Source of the DNA: Arcobacteraceae bacterium
Lineage (GTDB): Bacteria > Campylobacterota > Campylobacteria > Campylobacterales > Arcobacteraceae
Reading direction: 5' to 3'
DNA length: 64,000 nt
Assembly: GCA_021107755.1 (NCBI GenBank)
Contig: JAIOSF010000025.1
Coordinates: 1-64,000 of the forward strand
The notes under the pieces are model-generated. The model worked only from the letters and a program-made list of their open reading frames with translations. It was not told where the DNA came from and ran no database searches. The position numbers and the translations under genes are program-made. Below are positions 31,503-51,278 of the stretch, in pieces (the stretch's first letter is position 1; each line of letters opens with the position of its first letter).

Positions 31503-33143
31503 ATGCAAATAAAACAGTATGAGTTTAGTGAGGATTATAGTAAGGCGGTTGCCTATTTTTCAATGGAGTTTGCGATACACCAAGCTTTAAAAATATATTC
31601 AGGTGGATTAGGTTTTTTAGCAGGTTCTCATATGAGAAGTGTCTATGACTTAAAACAAAATGTTGTAGGTATTGGGATTTTGTGGAGTTATGGATATTAT
31701 GATCAAGCTAGAGATGAAGATAGAAACTTACGAATAGAATTTAGAAGAAAATATTATCACTTTTTAGAAGATTTAAATATCAGTGTAACGGTAAATATCA
31801 ATGGTAAACCAGTAGTTGTAAAAGCTTTAATGGTACCTGCTGAACTTTTTGGTAGTGCACCTTTGATTTTATTGACTACAGATGTTGAAGAGAATGATTA
31901 TCTCTCACGAACAATTACCCATAAATTGTATGATATGCATGAAGAGACACGAATAGCTCAAGAGATAGTGCTAGGTATTGGCGGAGTAAAAGTGTTAGAG
32001 GCTTTACATCATCAAGTAGATATTTATCATATGAATGAAGGTCATGCTTTACCTATGGTTTTTGAACTGTATAATAAAGTAAAAGATAAAGAACAATTAA
32101 AAGAGATGATTCGATTTACAACACATACACCAGAAGCTGCTGGAAATGAGATACATAATATTCATCTTTTAAATAAAATGGGATTTTTTGACTCAACTCC
32201 ACTAGAAAAAGTGAGAGAATTAACACAAACATATGATGACAACTTTAGCTTAACAGTGGGAGCATTAAGGATAGCAAAGATTGCAAACGGGGTGTCTAAA
32301 ATGCATGCAAAAGTAGCTACAGATATGTGGAGTAGTTATGAGGGAGTGTGTGAAATTATTCCTATTACAAATGCTCAAAATAAAAGATATTGGGCTGATA
32401 AACCAATGTTAAGAGCTTTAGATGAACATGAAGGTTATGAACTTATAGCTAGAAAAAAACATCTTAAAAGGGTTTTATTTAATGAAGTTGCAAATCAAAC
32501 AGGAAAAATGTTTGACCCAGATATTTTAACAATTGTTTGGGCAAGAAGATTTGCAGAATATAAAAGACCAGGATTACTAAAATACGATTTTGAAAGATTT
32601 GAAAAACTTATTACTCGAACAAAAGAACCTATTCAAATCATTTGGGCAGGAAAACCTTATCCACACGATACAAATGCAATTAATATTTTTAATGAGTTAA
32701 CTTATATATGTAGAAGTTATAAAAGTGTGGCAGTTTTAATTGGTTATGAGTTAGAGTTATCAAGACTTCTTAAAAAAGGTGCTGATATTTGGCTCAATAC
32801 TCCAAGAATCACAAGGGAAGCTAGTGGTACAAGTGGTATGAGTGCTGCTATGAATGGAGCAATTAATTTTTCAATAGCAGATGGTTGGCATCCAGAGTTT
32901 TGTAAAGAGGAAAAGAATAGTTTTACAATTTTAGGAGCAGATGCTAGTTTAAGTGTTGAAAATCAAGATCAAGTAGACAACAAAAGTATGATGGATATAC
33001 TTGAAGAAAAAATCATCCCAACTTATTATGAAAATGAAAAAGAGTGGATAGAGTTGATGAAAAACTCTATGAGTGATGTATTATTTGAATTTGATTCAGG
33101 TTCTATGGCTCACAAATATTATGAAAAAATGTATAAATTCTAG
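31503..33143 (+). CDS. Short-form GT35 alpha-glucan phosphorylase-like protein lacking the PLP lysine
   Basis: A 546-aa protein of the short alpha-glucan phosphorylase type. It has the N-terminal YFSMEFAIHQALKIYSGGLG segment, the phosphate-site-like VWARRFAEYKRP near residue 345, WAGKPYPHD near 380 and the C-terminal EASGTSGMSAAMNGA block near 445. In GT35 enzymes that block carries the Lys that binds pyridoxal phosphate (GMK or NMK); here it is Ser (codon AGT around 32841). The protein may thus not use PLP and may not be a true phosphorylase, or it may belong to a clade with another mechanism. It is the first gene of an operon with pgk and mgtE. A role in glycogen breakdown or build-up is inferred from context. 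Confidence 0.8.
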   Translation: MQIKQYEFSEDYSKAVAYFSMEFAIHQALKIYSGGLGFLAGSHMRSVYDLKQNVVGIGILWSYGYYDQARDEDRNLRIEFRRKYYHFLEDLNISVTVNINGKPVVVKALMVPAELFGSAPLILLTTDVEENDYLSRTITHKLYDMHEETRIAQEIVLGIGGVKVLEALHHQVDIYHMNEGHALPMVFELYNKVKDKEQLKEMIRFTTHTPEAAGNEIHNIHLLNKMGFFDSTPLEKVRELTQTYDDNFSLTVGALRIAKIANGVSKMHAKVATDMWSSYEGVCEIIPITNAQNKRYWADKPMLRALDEHEGYELIARKKHLKRVLFNEVANQTGKMFDPDILTIVWARRFAEYKRPGLLKYDFERFEKLITRTKEPIQIIWAGKPYPHDTNAINIFNELTYICRSYKSVAVLIGYELELSRLLKKGADIWLNTPRITREASGTSGMSAAMNGAINFSIADGWHPEFCKEEKNSFTILGADASLSVENQDQVDNKSMMDILEEKIIPTYYENEKEWIELMKNSMSDVLFEFDSGSMAHKYYEKMYKF

Positions 33144-33152
33144 GAGAAGATG

Positions 33153-34361
33153 ATGTTAAGTAATATTGAATTGATGCAAACAGTAAAGTCTTTAAAAGAT
33201 ATAGATATAAAAGATAAAAGAGTTTTAATAAGAGTTGATTTTAATGTACCTTTAGATTCACATAACAATATAACAGATGACAATCGTATCAAAGAAGCGC
33301 TTCATACTATAAATCATTGTATTGATAATGAAGCTAAAAATATAGTTTTAGTAACACATCTTGGAAAACCAAAAAATGGATATGAAGAGAAGTTCTCATT
33401 AAAACATATAGTTAAAAGATTGGAAAGATTACTTGATAGAAAAGTTGATTTAATCGATAACTTTATGGAGCAAAAAGATACTTTAAATAGTGGAACAAAT
33501 GCAAAGATATTTTTACTAGAAAATATAAGGTTTTTTGAGGGAGAAACTAAAAATGATAATAACTTATCAAAAGAGTTAGCATCGCTTTGTGATGTATTTG
33601 TAAATGATGCTTTTGGAACAAGCCATAGAGCTCATAGTTCAACTGTAGGAATTACAAAATATGTAGATAGAAAAGTGGCTGGCTTTTTACTAAAGCGTGA
33701 AATAGATGCTTTTGCTAAAGCACTTTTTAAACCAACACAACCAATATGTTTAGTTGTAGGTGGGGCAAAAGTTTCCTCAAAAATTACACTATTAAATAAT
33801 ATCTTGCCTAAAATTGATAAGCTTATAATTGGGGGAGCTATGTCAAATACTTTCTTAAAAGCTATAGGGTATGATACAAAAGCTTCACTTGTAGAAGATG
33901 AGTTTTTAGATGAAGCAAATATGATTTTAAAAACAGCGAGAGAATCTAAAGTAAATGTATATCTTCCTGTTGATGTGGTAATAACAGATAATATAGATCA
34001 TCCAATAGATATAAAAATAGTTCCCTCTCAAGATATGCTAGATGGTTTTAAAGCTGTAGATATTGGACCTGCAACAGTGAAACTTTTTGAAGAAGCGATA
34101 GGATTATCAAATACTATTATTTGGAATGGACCTATGGGTATTTTTGAGATAGATAGATTTAGTAAAGGGACATTTAGAATAGCTCATGCTATTGCCGATA
34201 CTTATGCTTATAGTATAGTAGGTGGTGGAGATACTGCAAGTGCAGCTGAAAAAGCTGATGAGAAAGAAAATATAAGTTTTATCTCAACAGGTGGGGGAGC
34301 TAGCTTAGAACTTCTTGAGGGAAAACTACTTCCAGGATTTGAAAACTTAGAGAAAATATAA
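33153..34361 (+). CDS. pgk: Phosphoglycerate kinase
   Basis: About 402 aa, normal for the family. It has the opening RVLIRVDFNVPLD block, GTSHRAHSS near residue 155, VGGAKVSSK and IIGGAMSNTF near 200-230, the ATP-site WNGPMGIFE near 330, and GGGDT(A)SAAEKAD near the C-terminus. It makes ATP from 1,3-bisphosphoglycerate. AGGAG lies six bases before the ATG at 33153; another ATG at 33150 is closer. It begins right after the phosphorylase-like gene and its stop overlaps the mgtE start (TAATG), so the three genes are co-translated. Confidence 0.95.
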   Translation: MLSNIELMQTVKSLKDIDIKDKRVLIRVDFNVPLDSHNNITDDNRIKEALHTINHCIDNEAKNIVLVTHLGKPKNGYEEKFSLKHIVKRLERLLDRKVDLIDNFMEQKDTLNSGTNAKIFLLENIRFFEGETKNDNNLSKELASLCDVFVNDAFGTSHRAHSSTVGITKYVDRKVAGFLLKREIDAFAKALFKPTQPICLVVGGAKVSSKITLLNNILPKIDKLIIGGAMSNTFLKAIGYDTKASLVEDEFLDEANMILKTARESKVNVYLPVDVVITDNIDHPIDIKIVPSQDMLDGFKAVDIGPATVKLFEEAIGLSNTIIWNGPMGIFEIDRFSKGTFRIAHAIADTYAYSIVGGGDTASAAEKADEKENISFISTGGGASLELLEGKLLPGFENLEKI

Positions 34362-35707
34362 TGAATATAAAAGCTATCGATCTCTATCTTCAAAAGCTTA
34401 AAAATGGTGTAAAAGATGAACACAAGATTGATGATGCAGATTTAGCTGATTATTTAGAAGATGTAAAACAAAAAGATGAAGAGAAGTTTTTTGAGTATCT
34501 AAACTCTTTACCATTAAAAATTCGTGCTGAAACTTTTATTGAGTTACCTACACCTTTTCAAGTTGATTTAATTTTAAAATATGATGCACAAGGTTTGGCA
34601 GATATTATAACTGTTTTAGATAGTGATGATGCAACTGACCTTTTTATCGCAATCACGAAAACAGACAAAGAGAAAGAGGAAGAGGTATTTTCTCTTTTAA
34701 GTGATACAAAACAAAAAACTATTGAAAAGCTTATAACTTATGAAAAGGATGAAGCTGGTTCTTTGATGCAAACAGAGATACTGAAAGTTTCAAATACCAG
34801 AACTGTATTGTATGCAATAGAAAAACTTGCAAAACTAAAAGAGGATGGAATAGGAGCAGTTCAAAGTGTTTTCGTTACAGATGATACGGGTAGATTATTA
34901 AAATCAATACCAATTGATGATTTAATATTAGAAAAAAATGAACGAACTTTTGATGAGATATTAGATAAGTTTCCTCAGTCTTATTATGTTACTTCCCATG
35001 ATGCAGTAGATAGTGTTGTAAATATTATTGAAAAATATGACTTAACTACATTGGCTGTTGTAGATAGAATGGGACATCTTATAGGGAGAATCACCCATGA
35101 TGATGTTGTTGATATTATGCAAGAAAGAGCAACGCAACAAATTTATAATCTCAACCAATTAGCTGCTGATGAACATATCTCCGAAGAGTTTTCAAAAACA
35201 ACAAAGACAAGAGCAATATGGCTTACTATAAATCTAATAAATGCAGTGATCGCTTCTTTTGTTATAGGTTTGTTTGAACATACCCTTGACGCAATAGTTG
35301 CATTAGCTGTTTTGATGCCCATTGTTGCAAATATGGCAGGAACTGCATCTGTACAAACTATGACTGTAATAGTAAGACAAATGGGGATAGGGGAGATTAC
35401 TTTTGAACACTTAAAACCGGTATTAAAAAAAGAGTTAAATATCTCTTTAATCAATGGACTTTTATTTGCTGTGTTGAGTTTTTCTATAGCACAGTTTTGG
35501 TTTTCAGAAGTACTTATATCTATCTCAATAGGACTTTCAATGTTTATAAGTTTTGTGTTCGCTGGTATTTTAGGAACAACTGTACCGATGTTTCTAAAAA
35601 AAGTTCATTTAGACCCAGCAGTTGCTAGTTCAGTTGTTGTGATTACACTTGTTGATATTATTGGTTTTTTTAGCTTTTTATGGTTAGCAGAAATAATAAT
35701 GCTATAA
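34361..35707 (+). CDS. mgtE: MgtE magnesium transporter
   Basis: A 448-aa protein with the MgtE order: N-terminal helical domain, a CBS pair (about residues 130-255) and a C-terminal membrane domain of five helices (from about 285), including the PIVANMAGTAS motif near 325 that lines the pore. MgtE lets magnesium in and closes when internal magnesium is high. Its ATG overlaps the pgk stop. Kinases and enolase need magnesium, which may explain its place in the glycolysis operon; that is inference. Confidence 0.92.
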   Translation: MNIKAIDLYLQKLKNGVKDEHKIDDADLADYLEDVKQKDEEKFFEYLNSLPLKIRAETFIELPTPFQVDLILKYDAQGLADIITVLDSDDATDLFIAITKTDKEKEEEVFSLLSDTKQKTIEKLITYEKDEAGSLMQTEILKVSNTRTVLYAIEKLAKLKEDGIGAVQSVFVTDDTGRLLKSIPIDDLILEKNERTFDEILDKFPQSYYVTSHDAVDSVVNIIEKYDLTTLAVVDRMGHLIGRITHDDVVDIMQERATQQIYNLNQLAADEHISEEFSKTTKTRAIWLTINLINAVIASFVIGLFEHTLDAIVALAVLMPIVANMAGTASVQTMTVIVRQMGIGEITFEHLKPVLKKELNISLINGLLFAVLSFSIAQFWFSEVLISISIGLSMFISFVFAGILGTTVPMFLKKVHLDPAVASSVVVITLVDIIGFFSFLWLAEIIML

Positions 35708-35716
35708 TAAGAATAA

Positions 35717-35749
35717 TATAACTGTTTTGTAACTATAGTGTGTTACAAT
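35717..35749 (+). promoter_or_regulatory. Pho-box-like promoter of the DUF4912-GH57 operon
   Basis: Plus strand: TATAAC (35717-35722), 5 bp, TGTAAC (35728-35733), 10 bp, TACAAT (35744-35749). The upstream half-site is the weakest of the set. The -10 falls inside a longer open frame starting at 35738, which supports the later start at 35771. Confidence 0.6.
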
Positions 35750-35770
35750 AGCGAATATGTAGGGGGTATT

Positions 35771-36391
35771 ATGGATAATCAGTTGATAAAAGATAGTTTA
35801 GAATCAGGTAGCTTTTCTAGCAGCACTCATGCTATTGAAACAATATCATTTGATAGTGCACAAGTTGTACAAAAAGAATATTCAATACCCCAGAGGTATT
35901 ACAAAGATCAGTTAGTGCTATTACCAATAAATAGTAAAAAGTTTTATATCTATTGGGAATTTACAAATAACTTATTGGAACAATTTGAAATAGAATATGC
36001 AACACAAATACAATTTAAAGTGATAGATAATCAATCACATATCATTAAAGAGATTGATTGTCTAGGTGAAGTTGGTGAATATTTTGTAAATGATTTACAG
36101 TATACAACAAAGATAAGAGTCGTTGCTGGATATTATAAAGATGATACCTTTGTAGAGATAATGTGTTCTAATAGAATCGGTGCTTTTAATACACAAATTA
36201 ATTATAAAGAGAAAGATAAGTTAGTATATCTTAAAAAAGAAAAAGGGTTTACTGAAATTATCCGTGCATCTTTACAGCACTTTACTATTGGAATGTCATC
36301 GGCATCTTATCTAAAAGAGATAGAGAGATTACAAGAGGTTTCAAAATCATCTCAAAATATATTCTCTTCACATACTCTAGGGGGGAAATAA
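35771..36391 (+). CDS. DUF4912-domain protein
   Basis: A 206-aa protein with a central DUF4912-like region (about 50-140: LLPINSKKFYIYWEFTNN and later IRVVAGYY), which looks like a beta-rich carbohydrate-binding-type fold. DUF4912 genes often sit beside GH57 branching enzymes, as here (1 bp upstream). It may help to bind or present glucan. The ATG at 35771 has AGGGGG just upstream; an earlier frame start would lie upstream of the predicted transcript. Confidence 0.75.
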   Translation: MDNQLIKDSLESGSFSSSTHAIETISFDSAQVVQKEYSIPQRYYKDQLVLLPINSKKFYIYWEFTNNLLEQFEIEYATQIQFKVIDNQSHIIKEIDCLGEVGEYFVNDLQYTTKIRVVAGYYKDDTFVEIMCSNRIGAFNTQINYKEKDKLVYLKKEKGFTEIIRASLQHFTIGMSSASYLKEIERLQEVSKSSQNIFSSHTLGGK

Positions 36392-38172: not shown

Positions 38173-40197
38173 TTATTTATTGGGAATGTCTTTAAAATAC
38201 TTATTTAAAATATTTTTTTGAAGTTCATCACATTCTCTAATAAACCCAATTACTCTATCTTTATAACCTTTTAAAATTCTGTCTCCCACAAAACTTAACA
38301 TACCTTTGTTGTTATAATGCTTCAATGTTTCATCATAGTTCTTTGAAGTACACAAAGCATCCAATAATTGAATATGTTCGTCATAAAATTGCTTGGGAGG
38401 TAATTGTTTTATTTCATTTGTAAGCTGTTCTTTTAACTTTTCAGGGTCTGATGATTTGCCAACTAAACTATTCAAGATTTTATCTACTTTAAATCTTGTA
38501 TATTCCATCGCTTGCTTGTCTTTCGATTCTTGAATTTTTACAAAAATTTGTTCTTTTGCAGAATTATAATCTTTCTCAGTAGCATGAACTTGAGATTTTA
38601 TATGTTTTAATATTTCATCATCACAAAGAATATTTTCCACTTCCATTACATCAAGCGTATAAATCTTACTTCTATTCCATGCTGTAATTTCTTCAGTTTC
38701 ATAAAAATCTTTATCAATTATTGCAATTGCTCCTAGATTAAAAAGTGCATGATTTTCATTAAAAGATTTACAGTAATCTATGGCTTTTTGGTGTCCACCA
38801 GTTGGTATAATTGTAAAGTTTTTAAATAAAATAGAATACAGTTTATAATCATAACTATCTTTTTGACCTTCACAAAATAAAATATTTTTTTTACTTCCTA
38901 CAAGTTCAACTATTAACTCCTGAGGTAATACATCATCAGTCGGAATCTCAATATATTCCCAATTAGAAGGTGGAATATATTTTTTTATCCAAAGTATTTT
39001 TGCTTGAGTTCTACCTATTGCAAAACTTGGATTATGAGAGAGATATACAAATTGACAATCACTTCTTTCTCTTTCAAGTTTATCCCACAGCTTATTTACA
39101 ATAGACATATTAAGATGATTTTCTGGCTCATCAACAATAATATAACCATCTTTTTCAACCAATAATACACTTGCGATACAGTAAAATATATTTTTTTCAC
39201 CATCACTTAATCCCATAAAATTATACTCTTGCCCAGATTCTGATTTTGCTTTTATATTACCTTGCCCATCATAATCTAATTTAATATGTAATATAATACT
39301 TTGCCATATACTTATTACATCTTCTAATATAGAATTTTCTTTACTAAATCCATCCGTACTATAATTTTTATGAGTATTATTTGCAACTTCTTGATGTTCT
39401 GCTATTAAATAGTTTATCATCTGTCCAAATTCACTGTTTGCAAATCTCATATCATTTATATCTTTATATAATTTATCATGGGTATGACTCTGTGTAAAAT
39501 CAGCGTGTGCCTGAGCTTTTAAGGGGATACTGCTATTATTTTGAATACCAAATGTTTTTTGAGCAGGTATAACTGCTACAAAAGAACTGAATTGACTTTT
39601 TATATTATTTTTTATTCTACGAGAAAATGTACTTTTACCAGAACCATTAGCACCTATTAATACTAAATTTTCATTTCTATTCTTTAGTAAATCAAAAAAA
39701 TCTATTATAGATAATGATTGAGAAGTTGCATCTAAAATTTCTTTTATACCTTGAATGGATTGTAAAAAATTACTTCGTATGTTATGGTCAACATTCATAA
39801 TTTGTTCATTGTCTATTAGCTTTTGTACATCTAAATTTTTATTATAATTATTTAGATTTTCTAAGTATTGCAATTGCTGAGGTAACTTATTGTTAATTGA
39901 GAGTTGTCTGTTTAATAATTCAACATATTTTTCTATAAAAGCTGTATTTTCTAACTCATTGCTTAGTTTCTTAAGTGCTTCTTTAATTTGTTCAATTTCG
40001 ATTTTCATAATATTTTGCACTGAATTATCATAGTGAGTAGGATTTTGAGAATAGTTTTGAGAGTTTGAAAATGAAAAATAATGAGCAGTTATTTTCTTTA
40101 TAAATTCACTATTTGTATTCCAATAGTTTTTAAGTTCCACGATTTTTTCAATGTACTCAATTCTTTTTTTTATTTTCTCTAATACTTCTTTTTTCAT
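38173..40197 (-). CDS. AAA-ATPase with C-terminal DUF4435 (TOPRIM-like), OLD/PARIS-type defence protein
   Basis: A 674-aa protein. About 175 helical or coiled-coil residues precede Walker A, IGANGSGKST near residue 182. Further on come the ABC-type signature LSDGEKN near 330, Walker B YIIVDEPENHL near 350 and the switch SHNPS. After about residue 440 comes a DUF4435-like TOPRIM region: FCEGQKDSYDYKL, IPTGGHQKA and IIDKDF, with the acidic metal-binding residues kept. This layout recalls OLD nucleases and merged PARIS (AriA-AriB) proteins, but the long N-terminal extension is not typical of AriA. It lies in an insert with an Abi_2 remnant and a toxin-antitoxin pair, which supports a defence role. 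Confidence 0.72.
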   Translation of the reverse strand: MKKEVLEKIKKRIEYIEKIVELKNYWNTNSEFIKKITAHYFSFSNSQNYSQNPTHYDNSVQNIMKIEIEQIKEALKKLSNELENTAFIEKYVELLNRQLSINNKLPQQLQYLENLNNYNKNLDVQKLIDNEQIMNVDHNIRSNFLQSIQGIKEILDATSQSLSIIDFFDLLKNRNENLVLIGANGSGKSTFSRRIKNNIKSQFSSFVAVIPAQKTFGIQNNSSIPLKAQAHADFTQSHTHDKLYKDINDMRFANSEFGQMINYLIAEHQEVANNTHKNYSTDGFSKENSILEDVISIWQSIILHIKLDYDGQGNIKAKSESGQEYNFMGLSDGEKNIFYCIASVLLVEKDGYIIVDEPENHLNMSIVNKLWDKLERERSDCQFVYLSHNPSFAIGRTQAKILWIKKYIPPSNWEYIEIPTDDVLPQELIVELVGSKKNILFCEGQKDSYDYKLYSILFKNFTIIPTGGHQKAIDYCKSFNENHALFNLGAIAIIDKDFYETEEITAWNRSKIYTLDVMEVENILCDDEILKHIKSQVHATEKDYNSAKEQIFVKIQESKDKQAMEYTRFKVDKILNSLVGKSSDPEKLKEQLTNEIKQLPPKQFYDEHIQLLDALCTSKNYDETLKHYNNKGMLSFVGDRILKGYKDRVIGFIRECDELQKNILNKYFKDIPNK

Positions 40198-50303: not shown

Positions 50304-51278
50304 TTAACTCTCTTTTAAAATTTCTGCTGCTGTTTCTGGTAAAAAAGTATTCACCATTATATCTGTATCTAACTCAAATCCAGCCGTCTTATAAAGTCGA
50401 GGTAAAATTTCTATATGAAAACGATTTGAGTTTGTAGAAGATTGTATATCTCCATTTTTAATAAGCATATTAAAATCTGGTTTTCCCAAAGCAGACTTAA
50501 GTTTTAAAAAACAAAAACTGATAACTTCACTTAATGAATAGATATCCACATCAGTAAAATCAATTAATGAGGTGAGGTTTTTTTTAGCAACAATAGTTAT
50601 CTCAAAAGGATATCGAGATGCATAAGGACAATAGGCTATAAAAAAGTTATTTTCGAATAATATAGCTTTTTTAAAACTTTTTTCATCAGCAATCAAATCA
50701 TCAAAAAAATCTCTTTCTGTATCAGTTTTGTATTTTTCATAAAATTGTAATGCTTTATGTGTAGTTTTAGGAATAAATGGAGTTGCAATAAGTTGAGAAT
50801 GGGAATGATGTATAGTAGCACCACCATTTTCACCATAGTTTTTAAATATTGAAAAATATTTGATTCTGGTATCTTTTTTTAAATCTTTTAGTCGTAAGCG
50901 TATAATTGAGAAATAGTCAAAAAATTCATCTACATTAAAATCAAACATCTGTTTTGTGTGACTTGGTGTTTCGATGATAACTTCATGAGCACCAAAACCA
51001 CTTTTATTTTCAAAACAGCCATTTTTATATGATTTTGGTTCTTGTTCTATTGAAAGTGCATTGTAAAGGTTTGCAACTATTCGACATCTCCACTGTTTAT
51101 CATTCCCAATTCTTGCCAGTTCATTTGGTGTTTTTGATTCATTTCCTAACTCAAATGGACAACTTTTAATATCTTGTATAGTTGTATTAGAAGTGCTGAA
51201 GTTTGTTGGTCTTTTTGCACGGTTTGGTGCAAATAGTATCCAATGTTGCGTAAGTTTGTTATATCTAAATTCTGACAT
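50304..51278 (-). CDS. GalT-like hexose-1-phosphate nucleotidylyltransferase
   Basis: A 324-aa GalT-family (HIT superfamily) protein. The active site is HHSHSQ near residue 160, preceded by NYGENGGATI, and a second His pair occurs near the C-terminus (NRFHIEILPR). The motif reads HSH rather than the HPH of classical GalT. It sits between a GH57 amylase gene and glgA, far from any other galactose gene. I therefore think it may act on ADP- or UDP-glucose and glucose 1-phosphate in glycogen turnover, as ADP-glucose phosphorylases do. That is inference. Confidence 0.78.
   Translation of the reverse strand: MSEFRYNKLTQHWILFAPNRAKRPTNFSTSNTTIQDIKSCPFELGNESKTPNELARIGNDKQWRCRIVANLYNALSIEQEPKSYKNGCFENKSGFGAHEVIIETPSHTKQMFDFNVDEFFDYFSIIRLRLKDLKKDTRIKYFSIFKNYGENGGATIHHSHSQLIATPFIPKTTHKALQFYEKYKTDTERDFFDDLIADEKSFKKAILFENNFFIAYCPYASRYPFEITIVAKKNLTSLIDFTDVDIYSLSEVISFCFLKLKSALGKPDFNMLIKNGDIQSSTNSNRFHIEILPRLYKTAGFELDTDIMVNTFLPETAAEILKES

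Follow-up and report, generated by a model that had tools for sequence, protein, structure and literature searches.

We describe here a branch of the GT35 family whose members lack the lysine that anchors PLP. No description of such a clade was found in the open-licence papers that we searched. The starting point is a protein encoded in a stretch of 64,000 nucleotides from an Arcobacteraceae bacterium (the window), which belongs with GT35/TIGR02094 by sequence and by fold. Sequence comparison shows that the branch has a single origin and spans no fewer than five bacterial phyla, and that the gene is under strong purifying selection. Since the PLP-anchoring lysine is lost throughout the clade, these proteins probably work in a way that nobody has yet tested. 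The window protein is most likely a catalytically active GT-B enzyme with a retaining mechanism, which uses alpha-1,4-glucan as substrate in glycogen metabolism. For the clade, the activity that seems most likely to us is phosphorolysis in which the phosphate ligand is bound non-covalently, with a probability of about 0.4.

A serine occupies the PLP-lysine position

To our knowledge, Lys-bound PLP is regarded as universal in glycogen phosphorylase and the known GT35 phosphorylases use covalent PLP. In glycogen phosphorylases, the PLP phosphate is the acid-base group. The gene studied here and the active-site features of its product are the following:

31503..33143, + strand: Lys-less GT35/TIGR02094 protein, 546 aa, intact ORF from ATG to TAG
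31599..31613, + strand: SGGLG, codons 33-37, active-site glycine-rich loop; G34, G35 and G37 in 96% of Lys-less rows, with gaps in the remainder, and in 100% of Lys-bearing ones
32124..32126, + strand: His208 codon (rabbit His377 equivalent), 100% in Lys-less, Lys-bearing and classic rows
32391..32393, + strand: Trp297 codon (rabbit Trp491 equivalent), 100% of Lys-less rows
32544..32567, + strand: RRFAEYKR, codons 348-355, phosphate-binding Arg/Lys block (rabbit Lys568, Arg569, Lys574); R348 98%, R349 100% and K354 100% in the clade
32742..32774, + strand: GYELELSRLLK, codons 414-424, with Tyr415 (rabbit Tyr648), Glu416, Ser420 and Lys424; E416, S420 and K424 in 100% of 52 Lys-less rows
32817..32843, + strand: EASGTSGMS, codons 439-447, the PLP-Lys position; Ser447 codon at 32841-32843

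The protein matches TIGR02094 (alpha-glucan family phosphorylase) with 440.6 bits (E=1e-131, cut-off 191.7) and the Pfam Phosphorylase family with 54.6 bits. The first-pass annotation had assigned it a GT35 short-form layout, correctly, as both the N-terminal extension and a match to TIGR02094 positions ~325-364 are absent. Its active-site motif is NTPRITREASGTSGMSAAMNG, within the block REASGTSGM-Ser447-AAMNG. Alignment with the solved enzyme of Segatella copri (9l6i) and with classic phosphorylases places Ser447 in the PLP-Lys column (rabbit Lys680), which confirms the serine already noticed after EASGTSGM. The name "glycogen phosphorylase" is thus unsuitable for this protein, because the defining PLP-lysine was looked for and Ser447 was found instead; indeed, lysine is present in 0/52 clade members.

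An AlphaFold2 model built from 39 clade members (mean pLDDT 86.7, pTM 0.88; glycine loop 27-37 poorly defined) has a GT-B fold like that of solved phosphorylases. Its best structural match is the Segatella copri glycogen phosphorylase 9l6i (Z 31.6, rmsd 2.5, 535 residues). Next come the ADP-bound starch/glycogen synthases 6gne and 2qzs, with Z 30.3 over ~440-450 residues, as high as the other phosphorylases or marginally higher (Z 28-31.6 for phosphorylases overall). As modelled, the shared fold leaves the donor unsettled.

The lysine is absent from a whole clade

We searched 397 Campylobacterota genomes and found TIGR02094 proteins in 75, with relatives in Sulfuricurvum, Sulfurimonas, Sulfurovum and Arcobacter among others. 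They occur in two forms, a short one of ~550 aa, which leaves profile positions ~325-364 unmatched, and a long one of ~710 aa. The lysine is present in 16/16 long forms; in the short forms (n=69) the same column holds Ser in 39, Thr in 28, Ala in 2 and Lys in 0. In one genome (G053, loci L019 and L088), which is without GlgA, a TAA stop interrupts the TIGR02094 match, probably a decaying copy.

A DNA pattern, EA(S/C)GT(S)GM(S/T/A)A, was also run across bacterial and archaeal genomes. At least 119 loci match it and, among the matches listed, every motif falls within a short protein of this type, from Bacteroidota, Verrucomicrobiota (Akkermansia, Luteolibacter), Gastranaerophilales, Halopseudomonas and Campylobacterota. 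Because this pattern itself selects non-Lys residues, short forms were also read by family score alone. Lysine was absent in 20/20 short forms from Bacteroidota, Cyanobacteriota and Verrucomicrobiota chosen by the family HMM with the residue ignored, and in 11 further ones picked in the same way (L332, L333, L336-L344). Lys-less homologues were read in Akkermansia, Chryseobacterium and Sulfurimonas.

In a tree of 88 sequences, 52/52 Lys-less proteins fall on one side of a fully supported branch, with one change of state. They come from Campylobacterota, Bacteroidota, Verrucomicrobiota, Gastranaerophilales and Pseudomonadota, and we rejected a phylum-specific oddity since the clade covers these five phyla. 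The suggestion that a whole clade might carry Ser or Thr here was therefore right: Ser, Thr or Ala is present in 69/69 short Campylobacterota forms, and the clade is a single one.

The rest of the active site is conserved

Apart from the lysine, all mapped catalytic residues are retained, namely both phosphate sites and the two PLP-sandwiching aromatic residues. For the sites that bind the substrate phosphate and the PLP phosphate, and for the aromatic pair, we assume the roles established in the muscle enzyme and in E. coli MalP; Trp297 would presumably neighbour the PLP ring, a contact known from glycogen phosphorylase. The GT35 phosphate- and glucose-site residues (rabbit R569, K574, H377, N484, E672, G675, T676) are all found in the window protein. 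In the 52 Lys-less rows, His208, Asn290, Trp297, Arg349, Tyr353, Lys354, Arg355, Lys384, Glu439, Gly442, Thr443 and Ser444 are conserved at 100%, Arg348 at 98% and Tyr415 at 94%. For close pairs of Lys-less genes the median dN/dS is 0.055.

Several fixed residues near the cofactor site in sequence are specific to the clade: A291, V345, W346, G414, E416, S420 and K424. Glu416, Ser420 and Lys424 are rare or absent in Lys-bearing relatives.

Genome context

The genes around the Lys-less gene in the window are:

33150..34361, + strand: phosphoglycerate kinase (PGK), PF00162, E=4e-142
34361..35707, + strand: MgtE magnesium transporter, TIGR00400 above cut-off
35738..36391, + strand: DUF4912 protein, PF16258
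36393..37973, + strand: GH57 1,4-alpha-glucan branching enzyme, PF03065 and PF09210
41191..43200, - strand: GH57 amylase/4-alpha-glucanotransferase, PF03065, PF09094 and PF09095
48039..48860, - strand: ROK-family kinase (glucokinase-like), PF00480
48862..50289, - strand: GT5 glycogen synthase GlgA, PF08323, TIGR02095 above cut-off
50304..51278, - strand: GalT-like nucleotidyltransferase, PF01087/PF02744
51287..53434, - strand: GH57 amylopullulanase-like protein, PF03065
53364..55856, - strand: sugar-1-P nucleotidyltransferase fused to phosphohexomutase, PF00483 and PF02878/PF02879
55914..57722, - strand: pyruvate kinase, PF00224
57737..58702, - strand: phosphofructokinase, PF00365

The operon runs GT35 - PGK - MgtE - DUF4912 - GH57 branching enzyme, with adjacent genes that overlap or are separated by 1 to 30 bp; a search of this region for promoter and terminator signals gave none above chance. 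That the gene leads a conserved-looking operon is reasonable for the window, given the tight spacing, but in relatives GT35 is not always first. The second glycogen/glycolysis gene group lies on the opposite strand, some kilobases beyond. Between the two clusters, at 38173-40197 (- strand), we noted an AAA_21 ATPase with a DUF4435 domain, possibly of defence type. The pair of DUF4912 and GH57 branching enzyme recurs near Lys-less GT35 genes at several loci (L040, L046, L047, L077).

We then considered 53 neighbourhoods, the window's and those of 52 relatives. The genes seen most often no more than three positions away are the nucleotidyltransferase-hexomutase fusion and a GH57 enzyme (26 each), then PGI (17) and PFK (15). 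In Campylobacterota this fusion repeatedly adjoins GT35 genes, whether Lys-less or Lys-bearing. A stand-alone AMPK-type glycogen-binding (CBM48-like) protein of ~90 aa often directly follows GT35 (at L082:2557-2835 and at some ten further loci in Campylobacterota).

The operon PGM - PGI - GT35 - CBM48 - NTP/PGM - GH57 holds the Lys-less GT35, and in genomes with only a Lys-bearing GT35 it holds that one. Outside Campylobacterota, the Lys-bearing GT35 is absent from 24/24 Lys-less carriers in Bacteroidota, 11/11 in Verrucomicrobiota and 36/38 in Cyanobacteriota (71/73 together); in these phyla the Lys-less gene usually stands in for the Lys-bearing enzyme. Ten Campylobacterota genomes have both genes, within one operon in the four loci read, and some show a single run Lys-bearing GT35 - PGM - PGI - Lys-less GT35 - CBM48 - NTP/PGM - GH57. 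These ten genomes, with four loci in one operon, argue against simple redundancy of the two forms.

The Lys-less gene is present in 68 Campylobacterota genomes, and GlgA above cut-off was found in 68/68 of them vs 6/329 others (the species are related, and a P value overstates their independence). The idea that the protein replaces a missing glycogen synthase is thus not general. Among genomes from elsewhere, only 6/40 are without recognised GT5, GT3 and GlgC, in a search that covered these three, and they may have GT4 synthases. Many Bacteroidota (genomes G398-G436, e.g. G436:C2:972889-973584) have a protein of ~270-310 aa that matches only the N-terminal half of the GlgA model (positions 2 to ~224), besides or instead of a full GlgA.

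Possible activities of the Lys-less proteins

Under phosphorolysis, the reaction would be glucan(n) + Pi -> glucan(n-1) + glucose-1-phosphate. The donor-side pocket would still hold a flat ring and a phosphate, in the Trp297/Tyr415 sandwich and the Arg348, Thr443 and Ser444 phosphate site, with a ligand no longer tethered by a Schiff base. Pi would bind on Arg349/Lys354, and the acid-base role that covalent PLP plays elsewhere would fall to a second phosphate group, belonging to non-covalent PLP, to a nucleotide or to a free anion. Reduced, Schiff-base-free phosphorylase keeps activity and pyridoxal-reconstituted phosphorylase is rescued by free anions; the covalent PLP bond is therefore not chemically essential. 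Phosphorolysis comes first in our ranking for two reasons: in most lineages the gene appears to replace a phosphorylase that bears the Lys, and catalysis does not depend on the Schiff base as such. On the other side, the loss of Lys in every member read, together with the fixed changes near the cofactor site, suggests a different ligand.

The first-pass annotation had offered a synthase-like or nucleotide-sugar-using role, or inactivity. The former is conceivable, but a GT5 GlgA is already in the genome and the Lys-less gene tends to stand in for a Lys-bearing phosphorylase; with the retained residues, this makes phosphorolysis with a non-covalent ligand at least as likely. Our choice is a slight lean, as sequence cannot separate the two. 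Indeed, a sugar-nucleotide-dependent alpha-glucosyltransferase (a glucan synthase or a primer/side-chain transferase) is a serious contender, only slightly less probable. The emptied PLP pocket would bind the nucleoside of NDP-glucose, where other GT-B enzymes bind nucleotides, and R348/R349/K354 and the GTSG loop would hold the diphosphate. The GT5-like size fits this, as does the model, which is as close to ADP-bound GT5 synthases as to phosphorylases. Some Lys-less members weakly resemble GlgA profiles: 8/10 match TIGR02095 with 27-44 bits over most of the model's length, compared with 4/10 Lys-bearing proteins with 13-29 bits, mostly local, and local GlgA HMM medians are 16.5 bits for Lys-less proteins vs 4.8 and 0.9 bits. 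However, by profile-profile comparison (hhalign) the Lys-less set is no closer to GT5 than the Lys-bearing set, and neither its motif nor its profile scores make the window protein a GT5 synthase (no match to TIGR02095, only 13 bits to other GlgA models). The nucleotidyltransferase-hexomutase fusion lies within three genes in 26/53 neighbourhoods, but it adjoins Lys-bearing genes too, and for this reason we no longer count it as proof that a nucleotide is used. Six genomes (G400, G401, G416, G422, G427, G431) have branching-enzyme homologues and are without recognised full GT5, GT3 or GlgC, as would suit a synthase, but they could still hold GT4-type synthases; and the GT5 GlgA of all 68 Campylobacterota carriers counts against it.

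It is improbable that the PLP-lysine has simply moved, forming a Schiff base with Lys424 (or Lys318) in an otherwise ordinary phosphorylase. Lys424 is found in 100% of the clade, where Lys-bearing relatives have Val/Thr, and follows Glu416, the equivalent of rabbit Arg649, by two helical turns. Lys318 is likewise at 100%, with His/Arg in most Lys-bearing TIGR02094 members, but it aligns with a Lys present in classic phosphorylases too.

A regulator or scaffold that descends from a phosphorylase and binds glycogen without catalysis would account for the lost cofactor anchor and for the ten genomes that also have a Lys-bearing form. We hold it to be slightly more improbable still, since the other catalytic residues are near-totally conserved across five phyla, dN/dS is about 0.05 and the Lys-less gene is the only GT35 in most carriers. 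For the same reason, that the mapped catalytic residues except Lys remain, the inactivity once envisaged seems unlikely. Decay had been thought unlikely from the start, and conservation, dN/dS (~0.05) and operon membership bear this out; we rejected a frame-shift, mis-assembly, sequencing error or single decayed copy, in favour of which we found nothing and to which we give practically no credence, as the same state occurs in 69/69 Campylobacterota and in all relatives sampled elsewhere, with low dN/dS.

Origin and significance of the clade

In a 36-row tree the Lys-less proteins lie at the base. In a 69-row tree, rooted with GT5/GT3 and with the motif columns removed, they are sister to Lys-bearing TIGR02094 proteins, which implies loss of the lysine; the basal arrangement was not rejected by the AU test (p 0.225), long branches being involved. 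According to a suggestion in a 2024 review (PMC11046441), PLP took the place of a nucleoside monophosphate in a proto-GT35 that used nucleotide sugars, a proposal that also favours the nucleotide-sugar alternative. The Lys-less clade may itself use a nucleotide, as NDP-sugar donor or as PLP-replacing cofactor, and would then be a reversal of the PLP takeover or a survivor from before it; we advance this tentatively and think it somewhat unlikely.

As reversal or relic, the clade is a natural place to test the hypothesis that PLP replaced a nucleotide. With the rest of the site kept, it offers a direct test of why PLP is present and of what the covalent bond contributes, and it bears on how phosphorylases and synthases interconvert. 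Moreover, a gene of broad distribution that is annotated "glgP, alpha-glucan family phosphorylase" (e.g. in Runella and Pontibacter plasmid records) may be assigned an incorrect activity in metabolic models.

Comparison with known systems

The window protein shares with the Segatella copri TIGR02094 enzyme (9l6i/20yr) the GT-B fold, 31% identity and the mapped catalytic residues except Lys. Unlike that enzyme, its clade has Ser/Thr/Ala for the PLP-Lys, lacks the N-terminal extension and the TIGR02094 ~325-364 match, and has W346, A291, G414, E416, S420 and K424. The compact Lys-bearing TIGR02094 forms (~570 aa; e.g. the Methylophaga and Stanieria plasmid glgP, L347 and L348) are similar in size and layout, with 34-35% identity, but they keep the Lys in 10/10 and form a separate tree group. 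Classic TIGR02093 phosphorylases (E. coli GlgP/MalP) share the fold and the EASGT motif, whereas they are about 800+ aa long and have the Lys, and the window protein scores weakly against them (48 bits).

GT5 GlgA resembles the window protein in its retaining GT-B fold, size and structural Z (30); in contrast, the window protein has EASGTSGM and no EPCGL motif, and stays below the TIGR02095 cut-off. The GT4 trehalose phosphorylase is a retaining GT-B phosphorylase that is not known to need PLP. It belongs to a different sequence family and could be a functional analogue of the Lys-less clade.
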